A DNA stretch of 22,116 bases from a virus. The translations under genes and the position numbers were made by a program. Shown piece by piece: positions 9,493-21,846 of this stretch. The first letter of the stretch is position 1, and every line of letters begins with the position of its first letter. The notes beneath the pieces are model-generated. The model was given only the letters and a program-made list of their open reading frames with translations. It searched no databases and was not told the DNA's origin. The stretch is from IMG/VR virus record IMGVR_UViG_3300021964_000609, positions 1 to 22,116 of that record. The stretch is one strand, 5' to 3'.

Positions 9493-9849
9493 ATGTATTA
9501 CGTTTGTATAGAAGATAACACAGTAGCAAGTATTTTAAACTACAGGCCTAATGTTCCTGCTAGTATTGAAGTTATTGAAATAACTGATGTTAATATGGCT
9601 GATATTGAAAATGATACACATTACTTTAATGTTGACACTAAATCTGTAACACCACATTCAAATTCTGTAATAACACAAAAAAATATTGATGAACAAAATA
9701 CTGAACACCAAGAATTTTTAAGAAGTACTGATTGGAAAGTACTTCGTCACACAAGAGAAAAAGCACTAGGTATTAATACCAGTCTAACTGAAGATGAATA
9801 TCTAGCACTAGAACAAGAAAGAGAAAATGCCGCTAAGGCAATTAAGTAA
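9493..9849 (+). CDS. Probable tail-fibre assembly chaperone
   Basis: 118 residues; ATG one base after the stop of fibre C, with GGAG six bases upstream, so probably translationally coupled. The first 60 residues form a small domain (MYYVCIEDNTVASI, DTHYFNVDTKSVTP). Residues 75-117 are helical and contain EFLRSTDWKVLRHTREKALG, then SLTEDEYLALEQERENAA. This TDW-x-x-x-RH pattern near the C-terminus, in a small protein just downstream of a fibre gene, is typical of phage tail (fibre) assembly chaperones of the Phage_tail_APC type. The family assignment is by pattern recognition and position only. It could instead be a small tip-binding adhesin. There is no signal peptide or membrane segment. Confidence 0.55.
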   Translation: MYYVCIEDNTVASILNYRPNVPASIEVIEITDVNMADIENDTHYFNVDTKSVTPHSNSVITQKNIDEQNTEHQEFLRSTDWKVLRHTREKALGINTSLTEDEYLALEQERENAAKAIK

Positions 9850-9860
9850 CGGAGCGAAGG

Positions 9861-11645
9861 ATGCCATATAACGTAAACAGATATAACGGTGTACTACAAA
9901 CAACAGTACCAGATCAAACAGTTGATAGTTCGTCGACTGATTTAAGATTTGTAGGTAAGAATTACGCTGGATATGGTGAAATCCTAAACGAAAACTTTCT
10001 TGCTTTACTAGAACACTTTAGAGGTGACACACAACCACGTAAAAGTATTCCAGGACAACTTTGGTATGACGATTTAAACAACAAAATTAAATTTAGAAGC
10101 ACTGATAGCCAGTGGAGATCATTAGCTATTGCTGACGTTAGTGCTATTCCGCCAACAGGATTACAAAGTAAGGATGTTGGTAATTTTTGGTTTAATACAG
10201 ACGCCGGTCAGATCAGTATATGGAACGGAACAGATTTTGAACTCATTGGTCCAGAAAGAGCAACCGGCTTTGGCGAAAGCAAATTAACATCAGTCACTGT
10301 TAGAGATGATAGTAATATTTCTCATGCTATTGTAAAGATAACATTAGATGATACAGTAATTGGTGTAATTTCAGATGACGCTTTTCCAATTGGTGTAATT
10401 GATAGCATCACAGGATTTACAAGCATTAAGAAAGGTATTAACTTAGTTAATACTGATGCTAACGGAATTACAACAGGCGATCATAGATTTTGGGGTACTG
10501 CTAGTGACTCAACAAGATTCACAGGCCTTGATATTAGCAACTTTGTACTTAGATCACCTGGCGGCTCAACATACGACGACGCCGGACTAACCATTGGAAC
10601 AGACGGCGACTTAAGAATTGCTGTTGACAATGGTAATGAAGGTGTTATTGAAAATTCATTAGGTAATACACTAAGAATAAGAATTAAAACAGGTAGTGTA
10701 CTTGACGATGTTGCTATCTTTTCTAATGTAGGTATTTTACCAAACGATAATAATAGATTTAATATTGGTGCGTCTACTAAAAGGTATAGAGAAATTCATG
10801 CTAGAGAAATCTACGCAGACAGTATCGAAGGCACACTAACCGGAAACGTTGTATCCGACAGCGGGTTAACATTAGTTGATAAGTTGACTAATGAACTTAA
10901 TGGAACATTAATTGGTAAATTAAAAGGCGACATTGTTGATAGTGCTAACAATTATGTTTATGAAGCAAGTACTAAAACATTCACAGGTGTTAACGCAACA
11001 ATTACAAACATTGATACAAACACACTTACTGTTATTAACAGAGTAATCGGTGACTTTAAAGGAGATATCTTTGCTACTGATGACAGTATTGCTTACAATG
11101 GTAATACAAAAGATTGGTATGGCTCATTTAATGGTAACGCAGATACTGCTTCAAAATTAGCAGGCACAGCACAAATAAATGGAGTTGTTTTTGATGGAAG
11201 TCAGAATGTTACTATAATTGATAGTAGTAGAGTTGCTAAAACTGGTGACACTATGGTAGGTAATTTAACTATTACTGCTACTCCATCTCTAAATGATCAT
11301 GCTGCAACAGTTGGTTATGTAAACAAAGCGATTAGAAGTAGAACAATATTTTTTAGTTTAGATACAAGAGGATTAGACGAAACTGCTAGTGGTCCTGGAT
11401 CGGTAGCGTACATGCTTAATACTTTAGCACCTGTAAGTAATTTTGAGGTTGGCGCTAGAGCACACGTAGCAAGTACAAGACAAAATGTAACTACAGCAGT
11501 AAGCGCACCGAGGAGTAGTTGGATTGGTAGATCGTTTGTATCTAGTGTAAGTGTTACAACAACAGTTCAAGATCCAACAAGAAACAATAATTTAATTTAT
11601 GAAGTTAACCAAGCGGGGAATAGTTGGGTTTATGTCTCAGGTTAG
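9861..11645 (+). CDS. Fibre-like protein D (tail fibre paralogue)
   Basis: 594 residues; ATG with GGAG six bases upstream in a leader (TAACGGAGCGAAGG) that matches the leader of paralogue B. The N-terminal module (1-130) has MPYNVNRYNG, VGKNYAGYGEILNENFLALL, GQLWYD, GNFWFN and LIGPER. The second module has LDISNFVLRS followed by DDAGLTIGTDGDLRIAV. The third has NRFNIGASTKRYREIHAREI and IEGTLTGNVV, closely parallel to the same region of A and E. An ATVGYVNKAIRSRT segment leads into a tip of about 100 residues (492-594, ending IYEVNQAGNSWVYVSG) that resembles the tip of B but is shorter. The stop codon lies inside the start of the oxygenase gene (14-base overlap). The protein is likely a virion fibre subunit. 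Confidence 0.82.
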   Translation: MPYNVNRYNGVLQTTVPDQTVDSSSTDLRFVGKNYAGYGEILNENFLALLEHFRGDTQPRKSIPGQLWYDDLNNKIKFRSTDSQWRSLAIADVSAIPPTGLQSKDVGNFWFNTDAGQISIWNGTDFELIGPERATGFGESKLTSVTVRDDSNISHAIVKITLDDTVIGVISDDAFPIGVIDSITGFTSIKKGINLVNTDANGITTGDHRFWGTASDSTRFTGLDISNFVLRSPGGSTYDDAGLTIGTDGDLRIAVDNGNEGVIENSLGNTLRIRIKTGSVLDDVAIFSNVGILPNDNNRFNIGASTKRYREIHAREIYADSIEGTLTGNVVSDSGLTLVDKLTNELNGTLIGKLKGDIVDSANNYVYEASTKTFTGVNATITNIDTNTLTVINRVIGDFKGDIFATDDSIAYNGNTKDWYGSFNGNADTASKLAGTAQINGVVFDGSQNVTIIDSSRVAKTGDTMVGNLTITATPSLNDHAATVGYVNKAIRSRTIFFSLDTRGLDETASGPGSVAYMLNTLAPVSNFEVGARAHVASTRQNVTTAVSAPRSSWIGRSFVSSVSVTTTVQDPTRNNNLIYEVNQAGNSWVYVSG

Positions 11646-12123
11646 TCTTACAGAAAATTATTGCTCTAACGCAAATGAAATAGTTAAATTAGCTGAAAAA
11701 TATTCAGACAGATTTTCAATGCGTTCAGACGGTGATGCTTTTGAATTCAAAACAAAGTACGGCATAAGCAATATGAAAAGTATGTTCCATACAAGTATGC
11801 CAGAAGAATTAATAGACGCAATATGGAAAACTATTCCAGAAGATAAAACTTTTGTAGAAAGCATTACACTTAATAGATATGACCCGGGTGATTCTTTACC
11901 AAGACATAAAGATTCAATTGGAAGTTATTGGAAATTTAAATTAGTGTTTTTACAAAGTGATAAGCCTCATTTCAAATGGTATGACGAAAACGGAAAAGGA
12001 CATCTAGTAGATGAAGTACCTGGTGCTGTTGTTAATATGCCAATTGATTTAGAACACGAAGTAACAGAAATAGGACAAGACGAAAAACCAAAGTACAGCT
12101 TAGTACTAGCATGGGGAGTATAA
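11632..12123 (+). CDS. 2OG-Fe(II) oxygenase superfamily protein
   Basis: An ATG at 11599 lies further inside fibre D. I prefer the ATG at 11632, which gives 163 residues and a 14-base overlap. The double-stranded beta-helix signature is complete: H92-x-D94 (RHKDSIGSYWKFKLVFL), the distal H142 (LEHEVTEIG), and K154 with S156 (KPKYSLVLAWGV) in the place where the 2-oxoglutarate carboxylate is usually bound. The metal triad is therefore intact and the protein is probably active. Small phage oxygenases of this type are common in T4-like marine phages. Their substrates are mostly unknown; candidates are protein side chains, such as fibre residues, or nucleobases. The next gene starts 1 base after the stop. 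Its place among fibre genes suggests virion modification or co-transfer with the fibres. Confidence 0.8.
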   Translation: MSQVSLTENYCSNANEIVKLAEKYSDRFSMRSDGDAFEFKTKYGISNMKSMFHTSMPEELIDAIWKTIPEDKTFVESITLNRYDPGDSLPRHKDSIGSYWKFKLVFLQSDKPHFKWYDENGKGHLVDEVPGAVVNMPIDLEHEVTEIGQDEKPKYSLVLAWGV

Positions 12124-12617: not shown

Positions 12618-14423
12618 ATGGCATATCAAGTAGACAAATATAACGGAACATTTTTAGTAAGCGTCGCAGACGGAACTATCGATACTACAACTGATATTAA
12701 GTTAGTTGGTAGAAATTATAGCGGCTACGGCGAAGTCCAAAACGAAAACTTTTTACATCTACTTGAAAGTTTTGCTAATAGTGTTGAACCTGAAAAACCA
12801 ATATCAGGCCAAGTTTGGTTTGATACTAACAATTTAAAACTTAAATTTTATGATGGTAACCGTTTTAGAACAGCTAGTGGAGCTGAAATAGGAGCTAGTC
12901 CTCCAGTAGGTTTATCACAAGGTGATCTTTGGTTTGATAGTCAAACTAACCAGCTAAGTGCTTGGAACGGTTCTAACTTTGTTTTGATTGGACCACAAAG
13001 CGCACCAGGGTTTGGTACTTCTCAAATTGTTACTGAAGTAGTAAAAGACTTGAATAACACTTCGCATGTTATATTACGTGCGGTTGTTGGCGGAATTACT
13101 ACAGCAGTGTTTAGTAATGACGATGATTTCACACTTAGTAATGATAACACACTAGCAGGATTTAGTGAAACTGGGCGTCAAATCAAAAAAGGTATTACAC
13201 TAAACAGTGTTAACGGAACAACTGGTATTAGTGATAGTGCTGGATTTAGATTTTTTGGTACTGCTTCTAACGCAGAAAAGTTAGGTGGGTTAGACCAAAC
13301 TAGATTTGTTAGAACAGACGGAACAGAAGGGTTTACAACAGCTCAATCGTTTGCTGATGTTGGCTTTACAGTTGGTAATCCTGTTAAAGCTCTTAAAATT
13401 TATATTAACAGTGATCAAAACCCAGCACTTGAAAATCAAGTTAATGGTAAAATTACTATTTCATCAAGTAACCCAAGCCAACCGACAGATAAATTAGATT
13501 TCTTAACATTTAGTAGAGAGCAAGCATTTGCTTCAGACGCAGATAGTTTTAACACAATCTATCCTGGCTCAACTGGATTAGTTAATTTAGGTCTTGAATC
13601 ACGTAAATTTAAAAATGTTTGGTCAGAAAATTTAAAAGGTGAACTTGTAGGTAATGTTCACGGTGATGTAATTGGTGATGTTACCGGTGACTTATATGCT
13701 CAGACCAGTCCATCAACTTCGATAAAAGTTTTTGATCAAGCAACGAGAGAATTTACAGCACAGAAGTTTATTGGACAGTTTTCAGGATCATTAGATGGAC
13801 TTGCTAGAGAAGCAATTTCAGCAAACAAAGTAACTAACTTAGATCCTAGCACTACTCATGTTCCGGGGTTTTCTACAATTCCAATTAGATCAAGCACAGG
13901 CACAATTAGTGCTGTGTTGTTTGATGGCCAATCTACAGATACACAGAGTGTAAACGGTAAGATTCTAGATGTTAATAAAACTCCTAATACTATTGTTCTA
14001 CGTAGTGGCGGAGGCGATGTTGATGCTAGATTCTTTAACGGAACAGCAACTTCGGCAAGATATGCCGACCTAGCTGAAAAATACACAACGGGTGAAAGTT
14101 ATCCAATTGGAACTGTAATGATGATCGGAACAGATGAGAATGAAGCCGAAGCATGTATTGAAGCTGGGTTCCCAATTGGAGTTATATCAGCAGAGCCAGC
14201 ATACTTAATGAATAGCGATATTGACGGTCAAGCGATAGGACTTAAAGGGCGTGTGCCTGTACGTGTTATTGGACCAGTAAGTAAAGGACAGGCTGTTTAT
14301 GTAGCAGGCAACGGCGTAGCAAAATATTCATCAGTTCTATTACACTATCAAATGGTAGGAATAGCACTTGAAACAGATTTAAATGAAAACGAAAAATTAG
14401 TTGAGTGCGTACTTAAGGTATAA
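12618..14423 (+). CDS. Fibre-like protein E with YADLAEKY-type C-terminal domain
   Basis: 601 residues; the ATG follows a GGGAAAAAC leader. The N-terminal module (1-130) has MAYQVDKYNG, VGRNYSGYGEVQNENFLHLL, GQVWFD, GDLWFD and LIGPQS. The second module contains AEKLGGLDQTRFVRTDG. The third (around 320-360) has NLGLESRKFKNVWSENLKG and a short glycine-tetrad tract, GNVHGDVIGDVTGDL. The C-terminal domain (about 474-601) starts with a YADLAEKY motif at 482-489, followed by YPIGTVMMIG, FPIGVIS, LKGRVPVRVIGPVSKGQAVY and HYQMVGIALE. I know this domain from the C-termini of many phage fibre and neck-appendage-like proteins, where some members act as processing or chaperone domains. Cleavage cannot be shown from the sequence. 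It is likely a virion adhesin. Confidence 0.82.
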   Translation: MAYQVDKYNGTFLVSVADGTIDTTTDIKLVGRNYSGYGEVQNENFLHLLESFANSVEPEKPISGQVWFDTNNLKLKFYDGNRFRTASGAEIGASPPVGLSQGDLWFDSQTNQLSAWNGSNFVLIGPQSAPGFGTSQIVTEVVKDLNNTSHVILRAVVGGITTAVFSNDDDFTLSNDNTLAGFSETGRQIKKGITLNSVNGTTGISDSAGFRFFGTASNAEKLGGLDQTRFVRTDGTEGFTTAQSFADVGFTVGNPVKALKIYINSDQNPALENQVNGKITISSSNPSQPTDKLDFLTFSREQAFASDADSFNTIYPGSTGLVNLGLESRKFKNVWSENLKGELVGNVHGDVIGDVTGDLYAQTSPSTSIKVFDQATREFTAQKFIGQFSGSLDGLAREAISANKVTNLDPSTTHVPGFSTIPIRSSTGTISAVLFDGQSTDTQSVNGKILDVNKTPNTIVLRSGGGDVDARFFNGTATSARYADLAEKYTTGESYPIGTVMMIGTDENEAEACIEAGFPIGVISAEPAYLMNSDIDGQAIGLKGRVPVRVIGPVSKGQAVYVAGNGVAKYSSVLLHYQMVGIALETDLNENEKLVECVLKV

Positions 14424-14426
14424 ATA
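14419..14426 (+). promoter_or_regulatory. Putative T4-type late promoter (TATAAATA)
   Basis: An exact match to the classical T4 late-promoter octamer, overlapping the TAA stop of fibre E and ending 23 bases before the next start codon. This is the best match in the window and the third such element over a stop codon. Confidence 0.6.
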
Positions 14427-14449: not shown

Positions 14450-15700
14450 ATGGCCGCACAATTTGATCCAATACTTTATTCAGACTGGGATTCTATACAG
14501 ACTGTAATCTACGAGCAGGTAGGACCGATCCAAGAGGTCGCCGGATCTCCTGGTGTGTATGTCGAAGGCGTAGGATATGGACTAGCACAAAGTCAATTAT
14601 CTAGTAGACCATATCCATTTACAAGAAATATTGTTTTAATTAGTTCAGAATCACAAGCTACCGTTGAGTTTGATGGTCCTCATAAATTAGTTGTTGATGA
14701 AGTTATTTTCTTTACAAACTTTAGTAACTCATGGGGCGGCTTAGGTATTCAAAATAACTTTGCTAAAGTTACTTCGGTCACTAGTAGTACAAGAGTTATT
14801 GTAGATTTTAATACATTTAGTTATCCACCTTGGAACTTTGGTGAAACTGCTGAAGCACAGCAATATTTTATTAGTGCTAATCAGTTTGCTAATCTTAGAG
14901 CAGATCTAGCATTAGCAGTACAGCATATTACCGGAGCAGTTCCAGCATTAGGTAATAACTTTCCAGGAGGAGAGTCTTCAGTATTACCTGTTCCTCTAAA
15001 AGGTGACATCATTTATCATAGTGTATATGATCCTTATTATGTTGTAGCAACAGCATGTGACACATACAGATATGTTAACAACGAAAACACTACACTACAA
15101 GCAACTATGCCGTCTTCGGCAACAGCTACAGGCGTATGGGATGGTTTAACACAGTACGAAATAAAAATTACATGGCCTAATACTGATGGTTTTGATTTTG
15201 TACAGTTCTTTAATACTGGCGGATTGATTAAGATTGATATGGGTAACGTCTCAGCATCAAATCCAGCATCAGATCCACCAAATACTGCCGCGCTGAACGA
15301 CTCGTGGGAAGCATTATTGAATGGTTCTTTTCCTGTGTTTATGGGAGCAAAAGGAAAAACTCAAATGGGGCTTGGATCAGATCCAAGATCAATTGCTACA
15401 ACAGGAGCATATGACCTAACTGGCTCGCCAGTAGAAGTATTTTACAAATCTAATAGTGGCAACCCTTATAGTACAGCATACGATGATCACTATGTACGAG
15501 TTGAAGCATTTCAGCAAGTTTTCCAGCGTGACATGAATATTATTGTTACACTAAACGATTCATCAAGCGGCAACACTTATGCGTCAAGTGTATCAATTGA
15601 TAGAAAACTTATTGTATCATTTGTTTACTCGATAGGGGCAGTTCCACTATCTGAAAACCCAAACCAGTATGTAATCCAAAGAGTTATTGGCTGGACCTAA
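14450..15700 (+). CDS. Putative virion structural protein, 416 residues
   Basis: The ATG is preceded by GAGGA at six bases and by a TATAAATA late-promoter-like octamer. I do not recognise a named family. The protein starts MAAQFDPILYSDWDSIQTVI and is rich in beta-forming residues, aromatic residues and glycine. Segments include PGVYVEGVGYGLAQSQL, ANLRADLALAVQHITGAVPA (a predicted helix near residues 150-170), and a C-terminal region with DMNIIVTLNDSSSG and RKLIVSFVYSIGAVPLSE that ends in VIQRVIGWT. There is no signal peptide, transmembrane segment or catalytic motif. Its own late-promoter-like element and its place directly after the fibre array suggest a virion component, perhaps of baseplate or fibre attachment. 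This is inference from context. It lacks the GYGExxNENF module of the five fibres. Confidence 0.65.
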   Translation: MAAQFDPILYSDWDSIQTVIYEQVGPIQEVAGSPGVYVEGVGYGLAQSQLSSRPYPFTRNIVLISSESQATVEFDGPHKLVVDEVIFFTNFSNSWGGLGIQNNFAKVTSVTSSTRVIVDFNTFSYPPWNFGETAEAQQYFISANQFANLRADLALAVQHITGAVPALGNNFPGGESSVLPVPLKGDIIYHSVYDPYYVVATACDTYRYVNNENTTLQATMPSSATATGVWDGLTQYEIKITWPNTDGFDFVQFFNTGGLIKIDMGNVSASNPASDPPNTAALNDSWEALLNGSFPVFMGAKGKTQMGLGSDPRSIATTGAYDLTGSPVEVFYKSNSGNPYSTAYDDHYVRVEAFQQVFQRDMNIIVTLNDSSSGNTYASSVSIDRKLIVSFVYSIGAVPLSENPNQYVIQRVIGWT

Positions 15701-15726
15701 GCCACATATCATAATAGTAGCATATT

Positions 15727-15754
15727 TTTAGCATAATTAATAGTATATGCTAAA
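15727..15754. repeat. Inverted repeat in the gap before the glycosyltransferase cassette
   Basis: TTTAGCATA at 15727-15735 is the exact reverse complement of TATGCTAAA at 15746-15754, giving a 9-base stem with a 10-base loop. A further direct copy of TAGCATA lies at 15718-15724. The right arm runs into the AAAGGA ribosome-binding site of the gene at 15766, and a T5 run follows at 15761-15765. It could be an operator, a weak terminator ending the late structural unit, or a hairpin that masks the start of the next gene. The stem is AT-rich, so it is weak as an intrinsic terminator. Confidence 0.5.
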
Positions 15755-15765
15755 GGACTATTTTT

Positions 15766-16128
15766 ATGGATAAAGATTCTGTACAACAAATAATAGATGT
15801 TTCTGATAAGTTAACCGTTCTAAACACTCAAAAACTTAGAGCAAAAGAAAAGTTTGAATCAAATACCATTGTTGGGTTTAATGGCGGCCTGTTCAAAGTT
15901 AATGAGTCGTTACTGGTTTATGTGTCGTATCTTTTACAAAACGGAAAGCAAGCCGACACAGTAGTTTTAGATCATAACCAAAATCCAATTTTATTAAAAA
16001 GTGTTAGAGATTTTAATAACACGATCCAAGACGCTTATTATTCTGCTCTTGACATATATCATAACGACATTAAAGAACTTGACAGATTAAAAAATAGTGT
16101 AACAAGATATTTTGATCTGGAGTCATAA
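15766..16128 (+). CDS. Small protein of unknown function, first gene of cassette
   Basis: 120 residues; ATG with AAAGGA eight bases upstream, part of which lies in the right arm of an inverted repeat. No family is recognised. The protein is mostly helical by composition. It has an N-terminal charged helix (residues 1-32), a middle segment VGFNGGLFKVNESLLVYVSY that might form a short beta hairpin, and a C-terminal helix rich in K, D and L (NDIKELDRLKNSVTRYFDLE) that could be a coiled coil. No membrane segment or signal peptide is visible. Its stop overlaps the start of the next gene by one base (TAATG), so it is probably in one operon with the glycosyltransferase-like genes. Function is not inferable. 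Confidence 0.6.
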   Translation: MDKDSVQQIIDVSDKLTVLNTQKLRAKEKFESNTIVGFNGGLFKVNESLLVYVSYLLQNGKQADTVVLDHNQNPILLKSVRDFNNTIQDAYYSALDIYHNDIKELDRLKNSVTRYFDLES

Positions 16129-16889
16129 TGTCTAAGGGTATTTTAATATTTGCTCATAATAATGGTGAGATTGATTATCTAAGGTTAGCATCAATTTGTG
16201 CTAAACGAATTAAGAAGTATTTAGACAAGCCAGTTGCTTTGGTAACAAACCAACATGTTAAAGCAACTGAATTTGATTACATAATTGAAACTGAAATTGA
16301 TACTTCTAACACTAGAACGCTGAATAATAAAATTCAACCGTTTTTTAATACTTCAAGACTAAACGCATTTAGACTTTCTCCATTTAACGAAACTATTGTA
16401 ATAGATGTTGATTACATTGTTAGCAGTAATCTGTTGAATCAATTTTTTGAATCTAAAGAAAGTTTTCTAATGGCAAGCGGTGTAAAGAATTTACACGATT
16501 CTGAGATGGAATACGAAATGCTTGGATTAAAAATGAAATGGGCAACAACTTTATATTTCAAAAAAGACAAAGTTGCTGAAACTATTTTTAAACAAGCAAA
16601 GTTAGTAGAAGAAAATTACTTTTATTATAAAGATCTTTACAGGTTTAACGTTAGTAGTTTTAGAAATGATTATGCTTTCACAATAGCAGAACACATTGTA
16701 AAGGGGTTAGCAAAATCGGAATCTATGCCAGAAATTAATTTTCTTACATTGGCACAGGATGAAATATTATCAGTATCGGGTAATAAGTTCTTATGTTTGG
16801 TTAATAATAAGCCTTGTCTGTTTAATGGTGTTGATTTACATTTTTTTAACAAACAAACTATTTTAGATTTTGAAGAGGCATTATCGTGA
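16128..16889 (+). CDS. GT8-like glycosyltransferase (DVD motif), copy 1
   Basis: 253 residues; the ATG overlaps the previous stop by one base and has GGAG at about six bases. The N-terminus (GILIFAHNNGEIDYLRLASICAKRIK) resembles the opening beta-strand and helix of GT-A nucleotide-sugar transferases. The metal-binding DxD motif is D93-V94-D95 in ETIVIDVDYIV. Downstream, TTLYFKKDK (140-148) and NDYAFTIAEHI (180-190) align with the next gene's YSGFTYFNKSS and TDEAFSIAAKI, in the place of the acceptor-region Asp or Glu of GT8-type enzymes. A VDLHFFNK segment near the end recalls the C-terminal histidine motif of GT8. The likely reaction is sugar transfer from a nucleotide sugar; donor and acceptor are unknown. 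The family call rests on motif spacing and fold pattern only. Confidence 0.6.
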   Translation: MSKGILIFAHNNGEIDYLRLASICAKRIKKYLDKPVALVTNQHVKATEFDYIIETEIDTSNTRTLNNKIQPFFNTSRLNAFRLSPFNETIVIDVDYIVSSNLLNQFFESKESFLMASGVKNLHDSEMEYEMLGLKMKWATTLYFKKDKVAETIFKQAKLVEENYFYYKDLYRFNVSSFRNDYAFTIAEHIVKGLAKSESMPEINFLTLAQDEILSVSGNKFLCLVNNKPCLFNGVDLHFFNKQTILDFEEALS

Positions 16890-17734
16890 GAGACTTCGGA
16901 TATCTACTGATAGTAAACAATGATAAAGATGGCAAATATATGGCTATGGCCCATTTATTGGCTTCTAGTATAAAAAGAACACAGCCAACAGGATACGATA
17001 AAGTTTGTTTAATTATTGATGATAATGCTTACGCTAAGAACAAAGACATAATGTTTGATAAGATTATTATTAAGAAAGATAACTTTGTTGGCTGGGATCA
17101 AAGAAACTTTATGATAGATTATTCACCTTACACACATACAGTTTGTTTAGATGTTGATATGTTCTTTACAAGAGATATTAGCCATTGGATTGATTATTTT
17201 GTTAATAAATCTAAAGGACTAGTAGTTACTAGCAATGTATTAAAGTTTAATAATGAACCTATTACAAATTTAAAATGCCGTCCTGGGTATAAAGAAAATA
17301 ACTTGCCAGTCTTGTACAGTGGCTTTACATATTTTAATAAAAGTTCGGCTATAGCACAAAACTTTTTTAAAGTAGTTAAGGCAATAACAAAACAAAAAGA
17401 TATTTTTAAACGTTTATATATGAGTAAAAAATATCCTCCGGAAATTGGAACAGATGAAGCATTCAGTATTGCCGCTAAAATTCTAGGTGTAGAAAAAGAT
17501 ATATCAGGAAACACAAGTTTTCCAAAGTTTGTTCATTTGAAATCTGAACTTCAAGATGTTAACATAGATTCTATTGGTGTTGATTTAGGATATTATATTG
17601 ACAAGAATATCAATATTACCATAGGCACTTTTACTCAAAACGAAATTATTCATTACAGTGAAAAGGATCTACCTATGTATGATTTAGCTGTTAAGTTTAA
17701 ATCTTTAATGTTAGAAGGAATAAAGAATGTATAA
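16886..17734 (+). CDS. GT8-like glycosyltransferase (DVD motif), copy 2
   Basis: 282 residues with a GTG start that overlaps the previous TGA stop by four bases (GTGA); GAGG lies seven bases upstream. It is a distant paralogue of the preceding gene. The order is an N-terminal Rossmann-like strand (GYLLIVNNDKDGKYMAMAHL), a second strand (DKVCLIIDDNAYAKNKD), the DxD motif D89-V90-D91 in THTVCLDVDMFF, a YSGFTYFNKSS strand (144-154), and GTDEAFSIAAKILG (188-201) with a likely acceptor-site Asp and Glu. The length and motif order fit a GT-A fold of the GT8-like type. The acceptor is unknown; tail fibres, other virion proteins and host glycans are all possible. The next gene overlaps its 3' end by eight bases, indicating a polycistronic unit. 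Confidence 0.62.
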   Translation: MRDFGYLLIVNNDKDGKYMAMAHLLASSIKRTQPTGYDKVCLIIDDNAYAKNKDIMFDKIIIKKDNFVGWDQRNFMIDYSPYTHTVCLDVDMFFTRDISHWIDYFVNKSKGLVVTSNVLKFNNEPITNLKCRPGYKENNLPVLYSGFTYFNKSSAIAQNFFKVVKAITKQKDIFKRLYMSKKYPPEIGTDEAFSIAAKILGVEKDISGNTSFPKFVHLKSELQDVNIDSIGVDLGYYIDKNINITIGTFTQNEIIHYSEKDLPMYDLAVKFKSLMLEGIKNV

Positions 17735-18257
17735 AATACTTTATGACAACGTAGGAAACATTGTAGAATTTACAAAAGTAATGAGTCATGAAATAAAAGG
17801 TCTTAACTCTGCTGTGGTTCCGGAACAGTTTACTCCTATGTTAGTTTCAGTTGATAGTGGCAATAGACCGTTAGATGAGTTTAAAGTAGATATTAATAGT
17901 AAAGATACTGTAATAATTGATACACGTAAGCCTGTAGTTTATCTAGATAAACAAATAAACAAAATAGTACAAATTTTTCCAAAGCAAACTGATAAAATTG
18001 ATTTAGATATTGTAATACAAACAATTGATAGCAGACCTCATATTGTAGTAACATCTAAACATGAAGTGGATCGAAAATTTTCAATTTATCTAACAAAAAA
18101 AGAAAATGTGAATTACCTATATCAATGTTTTAATTGTGAAACAAATTCAACAAATGTATTTGAAGTAGATCAAATAGATTATAGAAAATTATTTAATAAC
18201 GAATTTTCTTTATATTACAGAAAGATATTTAATAAATCAGGATACAGCATACAATGA
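17727..18257 (+). CDS. Unknown 176-residue cassette protein
   Basis: ATG with AAGGA about eight bases upstream, overlapping the previous gene by eight bases. I do not recognise a family. The protein has no signal peptide or membrane segment. It appears beta-rich, with repeated short strands (VVYLDKQINKIVQIFP, DLDIVIQTIDSRPHIVVTS, KFSIYLTKKENVNYLYQ), a CFNCETNSTNVF segment with two cysteines, and a basic, aromatic C-terminus (LFNNEFSLYYRKIFNKSGY). The two cysteines alone are not enough to call a zinc site. It lies between two pairs of transferase-like genes with overlaps on both sides. It is therefore presumably needed with them, perhaps as an acceptor, scaffold or adaptor; this is inference. 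Confidence 0.6.
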   Translation: MYKILYDNVGNIVEFTKVMSHEIKGLNSAVVPEQFTPMLVSVDSGNRPLDEFKVDINSKDTVIIDTRKPVVYLDKQINKIVQIFPKQTDKIDLDIVIQTIDSRPHIVVTSKHEVDRKFSIYLTKKENVNYLYQCFNCETNSTNVFEVDQIDYRKLFNNEFSLYYRKIFNKSGYSIQ

Positions 18258-19162
18258 AAATACAAGACTTAGATATTATTTTTATAAGTTATGACGAGCC
18301 CAATGCTGAAGAAAACTGGGCAAACTTAAAAAATATTGTTCCTTGGGCAAAGCGTGTTCACGGAGTAAAAGGTAGCGACAATGCTCACAAAGAAGCTGCA
18401 AAATTAAGCGATACTGATTGGTTTGTTGGAGTTGACGGCGATAATATAATTGATCCAGAGTTTTTAAAAATTACAATAAAAGACATTCCTAGAGTAAATT
18501 GTTATAGCTGGTGCGGAAAGAATAATATTAACAATCTTGTGTATGGAAATGGTGGATTAAAAATTTGGAAAAAAGATTTTGTTCTTAATATGAAAACGCA
18601 TGAAGCCGCTGATACTGATGTAGCACAAGTAGATTTCTGTTGGGAAGACGGCTATCAAAATTTTCCACAATCTTTTAGTACAACAGTTATTAACAAAACA
18701 CCACACCAGGCGTGGCGAGCAGGGTTTAGGGAAGGTGTTAAGATGCTAACAGTTAAAGGAATCTTACCACCAGTAGATACTCTTAAACAAACAACCCACT
18801 GGCAAAACTTACATAGACTTAGAGTATGGAGTTCTATTGGTAGTCACGTTGAAAATGGCAATTATGCTATACTTGGAGCAAGGATGGGAACATTAATGAG
18901 TTACAGTGATTGGAATTACATTAATGTGCGTGATTTTACAGAATTGGATAATATTTTTGATCGAGAAGTTAAAAGTTTATCAGAGTACGATGTTTTAGAA
19001 AAGATAACAAGTTTAGGAAAGAGAATTAAACAAGAAGTTGGATTACATTGGGCGTACTTTGATGTTGATCAAAGTTTACACATGATCGAATTATATCATG
19101 AAGCAATTCAATTAGGAAATACGTATTATAACAAGGAACAAATATGGACAAGTGGTTCTTAA
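18254..19162 (+). CDS. GT-A-like transferase with DGD motif
   Basis: 302 residues; ATG overlaps the previous stop by four bases (ATGA). The N-terminal half resembles a GT-A fold. It has LDIIFISYDEPNAEENW (residues 6-22), then a strand to WAKRVHGVKGSDNAHKEAA (31-49), then DWFVGVDGDNII with the candidate metal-binding D61-G62-D63. VYGNGGLKIWKKD follows at 97-108 and HQAWRAGFREGVKML at 151-165. These blocks recur in the next gene, so the two are paralogues. I recall proteins of this type as predicted glycosyltransferases in marine T4-like phages. The C-terminal 100 residues are helical and have no recognised motif. The reaction is probably nucleotide-sugar-dependent transfer; substrate unknown. 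Confidence 0.6.
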   Translation: MKIQDLDIIFISYDEPNAEENWANLKNIVPWAKRVHGVKGSDNAHKEAAKLSDTDWFVGVDGDNIIDPEFLKITIKDIPRVNCYSWCGKNNINNLVYGNGGLKIWKKDFVLNMKTHEAADTDVAQVDFCWEDGYQNFPQSFSTTVINKTPHQAWRAGFREGVKMLTVKGILPPVDTLKQTTHWQNLHRLRVWSSIGSHVENGNYAILGARMGTLMSYSDWNYINVRDFTELDNIFDREVKSLSEYDVLEKITSLGKRIKQEVGLHWAYFDVDQSLHMIELYHEAIQLGNTYYNKEQIWTSGS

Positions 19163-19803
19163 TATACGACGATCCATTAGCTGATAGAAACTTTAAAAAA
19201 GCAAAACAAAAGTTAGATACTCTCAGCGAAATAGTAACAGGAACCGGCATACATGACAGCCATCGTGCTTGTGCGTTGAAAAGCCTTACAGACAGATTCC
19301 TAGTACTTGATGCCGATTGTGAAATTTTAGATGACTTTAATTACACTACCTTTTTAGAACATCTAACAAGCGAAAAAAAAGTTTTTGTTTACAGAGCAAT
19401 TAATCCTGTAAACAACTTAGTATACGGCCACGGTGGAATTAAAGTATTTGATCGCAGACTGTTTAACAACAATAATGCTGTTGACATGACTACAGCGTTT
19501 GATATTGTACCGGTAGATTACATTACTAATATTCATAAGTTTAACTCTACAGCTTACCATACATGGCGTACAGCCTTTAGAGAATGTGTTAAACTAGCAA
19601 GTGGTACAGTAAAATTAAGAAATAAAAAAGATGACGAATATAGACTAACAACTTGGTGCGAAGTTTTTAACGATGTAGACTTTGCTGAATTTGCTAAACA
19701 AGGAGCATTAGCAGGACGAGAATACGGCTATAAAAACGAAGAACTTAGTAATATAAACAACTTTAAGTGGCTTAAATCAAAATTTAAGGATATAGTAAAA
19801 TAA
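19144..19803 (+). CDS. GT-A-like transferase with DAD motif (paralogue of preceding gene)
   Basis: 219 residues; ATG with AAGGA six bases upstream, inside the last 19 bases of the preceding gene. The same blocks occur in the same order as in that gene: KWFLIYDDPLADRNF, IHDSHRACALKSLTDRFLVL leading to D56-A57-D58, NLVYGHGGIKVFDRR (91-105), and AYHTWRTAFRECVKL (137-151). The glycine of DGD is replaced by alanine, but both aspartates are kept. It is about 80 residues shorter than its neighbour, mainly through loss of the middle and C-terminal segments. It may be a tandem duplicate specialised for a second acceptor or a partner subunit. The stop overlaps the next start by one base (TAATG). Confidence 0.6.
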   Translation: MDKWFLIYDDPLADRNFKKAKQKLDTLSEIVTGTGIHDSHRACALKSLTDRFLVLDADCEILDDFNYTTFLEHLTSEKKVFVYRAINPVNNLVYGHGGIKVFDRRLFNNNNAVDMTTAFDIVPVDYITNIHKFNSTAYHTWRTAFRECVKLASGTVKLRNKKDDEYRLTTWCEVFNDVDFAEFAKQGALAGREYGYKNEELSNINNFKWLKSKFKDIVK

Positions 19804-21200
19804 TGTTTTGGAAACCAGATCCGAATAAAAAGTATAAAAAGATCGCATCTCAAATTGGCAAGGGGTTTTGTACAGCGAAGTGGAATCATGTAAGTATACA
19901 TCTCCACACAGGTGATAACCATAGTTGTTACCATCCCGGTATGCACAAAGTTAGTTTAGAAGAACTAAAAGAAAATCCTAGTGCTTTACATAATAGCAAG
20001 TTTAAAAAAGAACAAAGAAAATTAATGCTTGAAGATGAGCGACCAAATGAATGTAGTTATTGCTGGGCATTAGAAGATGTCGGCGAACTTAGTGATAGAC
20101 ATTTTCGAAGTGCTGAATTTGAACAAATAGAAAAAGGAACTATAGATAAAATAAAATCTATGCCTTGGGATGCTGATGTTATGCCTAAGTATTTAGAAGT
20201 AAACTTTGGTAATGAATGTCAGATGAAATGTAGTTATTGTACTCCTAGTATCAGCAGTGCTTGGGAGAATGAATTTAATAAATTTGGCGACTATCCTTTG
20301 GATCAAAATGTAAACCGCCGACAGTATCACGCAAACAATAAAAACCGAGAACATTGGATTTATAAAGAAAAAGAAAATCCTTACATTGAAGCATTTTGGA
20401 AATGGTTTCCTGAAGTATATAAACAACTTCATACTTTGCGTATCACAGGCGGAGAACCACTGTTAAGTAGTAATGTTTTTAAAGTTATGGAATACATGGA
20501 GCAGAACCCTAATCCAAACTTAGAGTTTAGCGTTAATACTAATATGTGTGTTCCTCAACGTAATCTTAATAAATTTATTGACAAGGTTACTGTGTTAACA
20601 CAGCATAAAAAGATAGATCGTTTTCAATTGTTTACAAGTATTGATACTTGGGGAGAACAAGCAGAGTACATTAGAGATCCTATGAACATTGAACTTTGGG
20701 AAAAGAACGTCGATACATTTATGAATGCTGTTCCTAAAGCACAATGCGGACTTATGATCACCGTTAATTTCATGTCTGTGCACCGTTTTAAGGGTCTACT
20801 AGCAAAGATCTTAGAGTGGAAGCGTAAATATAACACCTTAACACATAACCGCTTTACAATGGATACTCCGTACTTAATAGAGCCTCCTCATCTTAGTTTA
20901 CAAATATTGGATGACGAGCATTTGGATGTTATGTATGACTGTTTAGAATTTATGAAACAGAATACTAAAAATTGGAATTTTAATTATTTCAGTGACACAG
21001 ATGTTACTAAATGGGAGCGTGTTATTAAATGGGCAGAAAGCAATAGATTTAAAGACTCAAAATTGATAGCACACCAATCTGATTTTATTAAATTTGTTAA
21101 TGAATACGATAAGAGACGAGGAACGAATTTTTTAAAAACGTTCCCCGAATTGACAGATTTTTATAATAAATGTGCTACTCGACTAGAGAGGAAGCCATAG
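19803..21200 (+). CDS. Radical SAM protein with N-terminal twitch-like Fe-S region
   Basis: 465 residues. The canonical radical SAM motif C139-x3-C143-x2-C146 (NECQMKCSYCTP) binds the SAM-activating 4Fe-4S cluster, and RITGGEPLL (213-221) supplies the SAM-binding GGE motif. SIDTWGEQAEYIR (279-291) is typical of the barrel. Before the core, C23, C42 (SCYHPG), C84 and C87 (ECSYCWALEDVG) form a twitch-like set of auxiliary-cluster cysteines. This matches the family named twitch domain-containing radical SAM protein (N-terminal twitch), known from marine phages and bacteria. Members of radical SAM families with auxiliary clusters often modify peptides, sugars or nucleosides; the substrate here is unknown. 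It is the last gene of the overlapping cassette. Its 3' end overlaps the convergent thyX by 26 bases. Confidence 0.88.
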   Translation: MFWKPDPNKKYKKIASQIGKGFCTAKWNHVSIHLHTGDNHSCYHPGMHKVSLEELKENPSALHNSKFKKEQRKLMLEDERPNECSYCWALEDVGELSDRHFRSAEFEQIEKGTIDKIKSMPWDADVMPKYLEVNFGNECQMKCSYCTPSISSAWENEFNKFGDYPLDQNVNRRQYHANNKNREHWIYKEKENPYIEAFWKWFPEVYKQLHTLRITGGEPLLSSNVFKVMEYMEQNPNPNLEFSVNTNMCVPQRNLNKFIDKVTVLTQHKKIDRFQLFTSIDTWGEQAEYIRDPMNIELWEKNVDTFMNAVPKAQCGLMITVNFMSVHRFKGLLAKILEWKRKYNTLTHNRFTMDTPYLIEPPHLSLQILDDEHLDVMYDCLEFMKQNTKNWNFNYFSDTDVTKWERVIKWAESNRFKDSKLIAHQSDFIKFVNEYDKRRGTNFLKTFPELTDFYNKCATRLERKP

Positions 21201-21846
21201 GAAAAATTTTAGCAATAACTTGGGCACAAGCATGTGCTATTTCCATGTGTTCTTTTTGTGTTCCATTAGCACCACGCAATTCAATATAATGAATCCAACT
21301 ACGTAAAGAACCATTCATATACAATCGTGTTTTAGTACAACCTTCTGGTAGTACAGCACGAGCTTGCTCTTTAGCAATCCCGTTATCAATAGCCCACTCG
21401 TATGCTTTTTTAGCGGCATTGATAACATCACGCTGTTGGTTCTCCCATCGAGCGTGTAAATCTATATCGTCAGTTTCAATTGAATTTTGTCGATTCTTTT
21501 CGTCTTGTAGTCGTGCTTCACGAATAACAAATTGGTCACCAAACTCTTTTGGATCAGCATAACGCTGACTAAACTCTTGAAAACTAAAACTACGATGTCG
21601 CACAACTTGATGAGCAATATCCCTAGTTGTTTCAATTTCTAAGCAAGCACTTACCATTTCAAACGGTGACCAGTGTTTGTGCTTGGCAAGATAATTTAAT
21701 AACTTAGTGCTTGTTTCGGAATTAATTTGATTTGCCGGATTCGATACTCGGGCGCAGTAAGCAATAAGATCCTGAACGTCTTCAACGCCTTCTGCTTTAA
21801 AATCTTCATCGGGTTTTGAATAACTGATTAGTTTAACTTGTGTCAT
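21175..21846 (-). CDS. thyX: Flavin-dependent thymidylate synthase ThyX
   Basis: 223 residues, close to the normal length of the family. The ThyX signature RHR-x7-S is present as RHRSFSFQEFSQRY, residues 83-96, with S93 and R95. Upstream is KHWSPFEM (57-64), in place of the usual HxSxxEH, so the second histidine is methionine here. The C-terminal substrate-binding region has NGSLRSWIHYIELRG (178-192) with R182 and R191. The enzyme makes dTMP from dUMP using FAD, NADPH and methylenetetrahydrofolate, supplying thymidine for phage DNA synthesis. The start overlaps the upstream gene by four bases (ATGA). It is transcribed opposite to everything else in the window, and its last 26 bases overlap the radical SAM gene. 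Confidence 0.95.
   Translation of the reverse strand: MTQVKLISYSKPDEDFKAEGVEDVQDLIAYCARVSNPANQINSETSTKLLNYLAKHKHWSPFEMVSACLEIETTRDIAHQVVRHRSFSFQEFSQRYADPKEFGDQFVIREARLQDEKNRQNSIETDDIDLHARWENQQRDVINAAKKAYEWAIDNGIAKEQARAVLPEGCTKTRLYMNGSLRSWIHYIELRGANGTQKEHMEIAHACAQVIAKIFPMASSLVE

Follow-up and report, generated by a model that had tools for sequence, protein, structure and literature searches.

The window analysed here is the whole 22.1-kb stretch (22,116 nucleotides) of the IMG/VR virus record IMGVR_UViG_3300021964_000609, and it carries on its plus strand a run of seven overlapping open reading frames (ORFs), all of them recovered in our analysis, which include four glycosyltransferase (GT)-like proteins and one radical S-adenosylmethionine (SAM) enzyme. 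These ORFs were named G1 to G7 from 5' to 3' and are referred to together as the module. A row of fibre genes, followed by a gene for an adhesin-like protein, lies 5' of G1. The features are located in the window as follows:

15766..16128, plus strand: G1, first gene of the module, 120 residues, function unassigned, conserved in relatives
16128..16889, plus strand: G2, 253 residues, glycosyltransferase-like (GT8-like as a lead), paralogue of G3
16886..17734, plus strand: G3, 282 residues, GTG start, glycosyltransferase-like, paralogue of G2
17727..18257, plus strand: G4, 176 residues, fast-evolving and beta-rich, suggested adaptor or specificity factor
18254..19162, plus strand: G5, 302 residues, predicted GT-A-fold glycosyltransferase, the best conserved module protein
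19144..19803, plus strand: G6, 219 residues, GT-A-like paralogue of G5
19803..21200, plus strand: G7, 465 residues, radical SAM protein with N-terminal twitch region, exchangeable accessory
15718..15757, plus strand: hairpin before G1, pairing with the ribosome-binding AAGG of G1 (z score of the window fold, -2.36)
14450..15700, plus strand: adhesin-like gene, 416 residues, directly 5' of the module, in constant position in relatives, proposed acceptor
14419..14426, plus strand: exact TATAAATA box found by pattern search 24 bases 5' of the adhesin gene, suggestive only
12618..14423, plus strand: fibre gene, preceding the adhesin gene and the module in relatives, with homologues in phages Phosso and PA5oct

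The junctions from G1 to G7 overlap by 1, 4, 8, 4, 19 and 1 base, in that order, so that the coordinates and the overlaps of 1-19 bases proposed in an initial annotation, made from the sequence alone, are confirmed. Because the gene order and the short overlaps at every junction recur in relatives, this arrangement is not due to chance. The same annotation had placed the genes next to fibre genes; indeed, fibre and adhesin genes lie directly upstream and this linkage is kept in relatives. The unit is bigger than seven genes, being tied to the upstream fibre and adhesin genes and to the hairpin before G1.

Relatives were searched by tblastn in 50,697 cultured-phage records, where G3 to G6 of the window, as well as G1, G3 and G7 of more central relatives, had no match; the window G7 gave only matches of 22.7%, to two Vibrio phages. 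None of the cultured phages searched carries the module. IMG/VR contains more than 500 relatives of G5 and more than 500 of G3. G5, G3, the fibre gene and G7 each served as bait for recruiting loci, and all four sets show one arrangement. Collapsing the G5 proteins at 95% identity left a non-redundant set of 136 uncultured-virus loci, in which G4 was recognised in place in 125 of 135 loci, G3 in 131/134, G2 in 128/132 and G1 in 115/121, several exceptions to the order corresponding to divergent G4 forms or to one inserted ORF. The gene 3' of G5 is G6 in 107 of 129 loci and G7 in the other 22 (22/129), and G6 is itself followed by G7 in 87 of 93. Recruitment with the fibre gene gave 77 loci, 61 of which extend at least 5 kb downstream of it; the module follows in 59 of these 61, and the two exceptions (L238 and L280) have very long ORFs in its place. 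Among loci recruited with G7, 72/80 hold G5 or G6. Finally, twelve large records (123-364 kb, which may be fragments) each carry a single copy of G1 and one G5/G6 pair. The order G1-G2-G3-G4-G5 is near-invariant, and the co-occurrence that the initial annotation had asked to be checked is borne out, since in the 136 loci the genes are conserved together and not scattered. The module, whole or partial, was also seen in contigs of metagenome-assembled genomes from GTDB (L091-L098, L100 and L102), in bins assigned to Neomarinimicrobiota, Rickettsiales, Gammaproteobacteria and others; these are probably phage contigs.

Judged by their marker proteins, the module carriers are uncultured T4-like jumbo phages with Phosso, PA5oct and GAP32 among their relatives. 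Of the 12 large records, 11 encode a T4 gp23-type capsid protein, and the one compared is 68-73% identical to those of Vibrio phage 2.275.O, of Phosso, of PA5oct and of the GAP32 group. A gp55-like late sigma factor is present in all 12 (one match to T4 gp55 per record, E 1e-5 to 8e-8), the window itself being a fragment, and the window fibre gene matches Phosso and PA5oct. G3 and G5 were not detectable in Vibrio phage 2.275.O, Phosso or PA5oct.

The four GT-like proteins form two pairs. The initial annotation had recognised both, describing the second as paralogous and GT-A-like; profile comparison with hhalign supports the G5-G6 paralogy (E 2.8e-41) and extends paralogy to G2-G3 (98.7%, E 1.8e-16), no relationship between G2 and G5 being detectable in this way. 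The aspartates of the DxD motif are conserved in all four proteins: among relatives the motif is invariant in G2 and conserved in G3, and D61/D63 of G5 and D56/D58 of G6 are invariant. Searches of Pfam, PHROGs and NCBIfam returned nothing useful for G1 to G6. Foldseek places the predicted model of G5 (predicted local distance difference test score, pLDDT, 90.6) among GT-A enzymes (E about 1e-4, probability about 0.99), with the peptide S-glycosyltransferases SunS and ThuS on top, together with RmlT, a mannosyltransferase, and cellulose and hyaluronan synthases. G5 is therefore predicted to have a GT-A fold, in agreement with the initial proposal and against structures unrelated to this fold, and a GT-A-like nature of G6 is supported through its homology to G5; from sequence and model, both would be expected to transfer sugars. 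The GT8-like label originally given to G2 and G3 fared less well. Glycogenins are the sole matches of G2 in the PDB profile search and are weak (E 0.04), so that the label is a lead rather than a result; no GT8 Pfam match was obtained for G2 or G3, and G3, like G4 and G6, had no match in the PDB sequence-profile search.

G6 is enlarged at its N-terminus in many relatives. It reaches 750-884 residues in four loci (L022, L056, L073 and L088), where the N-terminal additions contain partial GT-A-like halves. The family also has a cellular branch, seen in Parvibaculum and actinobacterial genomes (L101, L108 and L109), whose G6-like members share about 30% identity; the distant actinobacterial genes adjoin other glycosyltransferase genes.

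The other three proteins are of different kinds. G1, although conserved in relatives, gave no known family or relative in profile and database searches. The predicted model of G4 is confident and beta-rich (pLDDT 92.5); no fold match was found for it in the PDB, and a viral structure library yielded two uncharacterised proteins only. With a mean column identity of 42%, G4 evolves as fast as the adhesin. It had been put forward as the best candidate for an acceptor or scaffold, a role for which we found no positive evidence. A relationship of G4 to the 118-residue or 156-residue proteins of the fibre region was rejected by profile comparison; the 118-residue protein of the window (9493-9849) resembles, on inspection by eye, a tail-fibre assembly protein and is repeated between fibre genes in relatives. 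The description of G7 as a radical SAM enzyme with an N-terminal auxiliary region holds: it belongs to N_Twi_rSAM (NF033640; 321.9 bits against a curated cut-off of 170), and both the CX3CX2C cysteines (C139, C143 and C146) and those of the N-terminal twitch region (C23, C42, C84 and C87) are invariant or nearly so in 28 sequences. The adhesins were considered as carriers of Cys-rich peptide targets of this enzyme and rejected as such, having few cysteines and no motif that we could see. In four loci without G5 or G6 (L303, L308, L330 and L373), G7-type genes stand in a different neighbourhood, among genes that by eye are ligase-, MazG- and membrane-protein-like.

The history of these genes was compared through pairwise protein distances. 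In 55 loci with all genes, the distances of the fibre, the adhesin and G1 to G5 correlate with one another at 0.70-0.88, and those of G7 correlate with them at 0.11-0.23. When only high-scoring G7 proteins and the C-terminal domain of G6 were used (82 loci), G6 correlated with the core at 0.69-0.77 and G7 at 0.26-0.43. After removal of overall divergence, the adhesin tracks G5 (0.40), the fibre (0.34), G4 (0.25) and G2 (0.22). Since G7 is only loosely coupled to the core and G7-type proteins also occur in other neighbourhoods, we regard the fibre gene, the adhesin gene and G1 to G6 as the unit and G7 as an exchangeable add-on. The proposal that all seven genes form one unit thus stands for G1 to G6, which are conserved together, and not for G7 as an equal partner.

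The leader of G1 was studied in 115 loci over the 65 bases 5' of the gene, with shuffled sequence as control. A TAAATA box is present in 88 of these leaders, mostly 31-35 nucleotides before the start codon (shuffles, 17.7; standard deviation 3.4). The leaders fold much more stably than shuffled sequence (mean z score -3.2), whereas the equivalent stretches before G3 and G5 are at about 0. The box is also found before 33-43% of fibre and adhesin genes, where no hairpin of this sort accompanies it, and before none of G2 to G6. Native 5'/3' pairs of hairpin arms average -14.7 kcal/mol against -9.2 for arms swapped between loci, and of the 68 loci with a recognisable ribosome-binding motif, 50 have it paired. 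Among the 12 examples listed, transcripts that begin downstream of the box show weak structure, with one exception. As the hairpin hides the ribosome site of G1 and encloses a T4-type late box in most relatives, the module is predicted, by sequence and by analogy, to be synthesised only late in infection. The analogy is with e, soc, 49 and I-TevI of T4, whose late RNA is translated and whose read-through RNA is translated poorly (PMC3014915, PMC2988022); there too a hairpin masks the ribosome site of the read-through transcript and holds a TATAAATA-type late promoter in its 5' part, but here the hairpin would gate a whole multigene modification unit. For a few loci, the leader could also be read as a host sigma-70 extended -10 element. 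By pattern search, the window as a whole shows no enrichment of TAAATA-type boxes, and boxes alone were for this reason rejected as proof of late promoters; the argument rests on box position and hairpin in relatives. The window hairpin is present and covers the AAGG.

Two further genes of the window deserve mention. ThyX is encoded on the opposite strand (21175-21846), its gene sharing 26 bases with the end of G7, a convergent layout kept in close relatives. A 174-residue protein (11599-12123), by eye 2-oxoglutarate oxygenase-like, overlaps the end of a fibre gene and is conserved in close relatives.

We propose, with about even confidence, that the module is a late-expressed virion-modification unit which glycosylates the phage's own adhesin or fibre stepwise. 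Late in infection, a transcript starting inside the hairpin before G1 would free the ribosome site, and G1 to G7 would then undergo coupled translation as a unit. The pairs G2/G3 and G5/G6 would add sugars stepwise, in the cytosol, to newly made adhesin or fibre, G1 and G4 acting as adaptors or specificity factors, and G7, where present, could edit the sugar or the acceptor by radical chemistry. We infer the enzyme activities, the sequence in which they act, the identity of the acceptor as the adhesin and what G1, G4 and G7 do. This proposal is favoured by the near-invariant order, by the linkage and common history with the adhesin, by the DxD aspartates kept in all four GT-like proteins, by the predicted late synthesis, by the gp55-like factor in all 12 large records and by the module having no lipid-carrier step and no membrane segment above the hydrophobicity threshold in any of its proteins; the peptide glycosyltransferases among the top fold matches of G5 and the peptide-maturase-like cluster found in the corresponding place in Phosso (see below) point the same way. 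In relatives, the genes after the module encode GDP-mannose-dehydratase-like, UDP-sugar dehydrogenase, DegT, sulfotransferase, FkbM and hexapeptide-transferase proteins, and extra radical SAM paralogues are also seen; the sugar genes fit the building and decoration of a glycan and do not indicate its carrier. The stepwise modification of a glycan or protein suggested initially is retained as far as paired GTs and a radical SAM enzyme are conserved beside fibres and G5 has a predicted GT-A fold, and abandoned for G4 as acceptor and for an equal role of G7. A bolder version, which we consider doubtful, sees in the module a core late-gated glycosylation machine for receptor-binding adhesins across the clade, in which four GTs and the dedicated adaptor G4 would build a defined oligosaccharide that the exchangeable radical SAM enzyme would diversify by editing the sugar or the acceptor.

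Several points weigh against virion glycosylation. The adhesin is a candidate acceptor only, and because linkage alone gives a common history, its co-evolution with the module is no proof of physical interaction; the global TM-scores of G5 to GT-A enzymes are low (0.3-0.37); and the window copy has a degenerate box instead of an exact one, so that its late control is deduced from relatives. Late synthesis would equally suit late modification of the host surface, which is how similar clusters, with GT8 and other GTs, have been read in pelagimyophages and jumbo cyanophages (PMC7029224, PMC7824862). Late remodelling of host lipopolysaccharide or capsule, excluding rival phages or stopping progeny from re-adsorbing to infected cells and debris, is accordingly the most serious alternative, with a real but clearly smaller chance, and the sugar-nucleotide, sulfotransferase and methyltransferase genes downstream in relatives would also suit a surface polysaccharide. 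However, the module has neither membrane segments nor a lipid-carrier enzyme, flippase or membrane GT, and the membrane glycosyltransferase and flippase of GtrABC-like O-antigen conversion have no counterpart in it; late-only gating would come late for superinfection exclusion, and the clusters described as modifying the host surface are sporadic and polymorphic, unlike this near-invariant module. Late gating together with adhesin linkage favours the virion over the host surface.

Glycosylation of hypermodified bases in phage DNA, as by the T4 alpha- and beta-glucosyltransferases, is a common job of phage GTs, and ThyX adjoins the module. We nevertheless hold it to be very improbable, since no thymidylate-synthase-type hydroxymethylase (PF00303) was found in the 12 large records, possible fragments in which the controls were positive; a Tet/JBP search, run without positive control, was also empty, and neither late gating nor adhesin linkage suits this function. 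Hardly more probable is that the product is a small molecule, or a modified peptide bound to nothing, which the cell releases on lysis: natural-product pathways often contain radical SAM enzymes and GTs, and relatives carry extra radical SAM paralogues and sugar genes, but the module has no scaffold-building enzyme or precursor peptide and is strictly linked to, and shares its history with, the fibre and adhesin genes.

Fibre regions rich in GTs, radical SAM cassettes in such regions and virion glycosylation are already known. In the open-licence literature we found neither the fixed module nor its hairpin described, nor the near-constant presence of the module in this clade, and no paper combining radical SAM, jumbo phage and glycosyltransferase, so that a conserved, late-gated module appears undescribed so far. 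The host-recognition clusters of pelagimyophages, which are T4-like marine phages, combine GTs (GT8 most often) and radical SAM cassettes in the tail-fibre region (PMC7029224); that region is hypervariable, whereas the module is near-invariant in order and content and its G3 to G6 are without tblastn match among the cultured-phage records. The GT clusters of jumbo cyanophages resemble it in their paralogous GTs and sugar-nucleotide genes, but are sporadic and polymorphic and are read as O-antigen or capsule modification (PMC7824862), while the module is linked to adhesins and preceded by a late hairpin. In the related jumbo phage Phosso of Sinorhizobium, a radical SAM/SPASM cluster lies directly 3' of the homologous fibre gene; its enzymes differ in having best matches to peptide maturases, and the cluster was rejected as a homologue of the module, no homologue of G1 to G7 being found among the Phosso genes tested. 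It includes a 306-residue protein (L190:18679-19599) that ends in CHTSCHASCHSS, a tail rich in Cys and His and resembling a substrate of peptide maturases. Mycobacteriophages encode the glycosylation of their own virion proteins, at the C-termini of capsid and tail-tube proteins (Freeman et al. 2023, as cited in PMC12619734); compared with what is summarised there, the module has four GT-like proteins and a radical SAM enzyme, and its acceptor is a candidate only. When GT and radical SAM genes occur in the fibre regions of phages, they are mostly viewed as variable auxiliary genes altering the host surface; a near-invariant, single-copy and adhesin-tied module with T4-late-like gating opens the acceptor to direct testing and suggests instead that virion glycosylation could be a core step of particle making in a large clade of uncultured jumbo phages.

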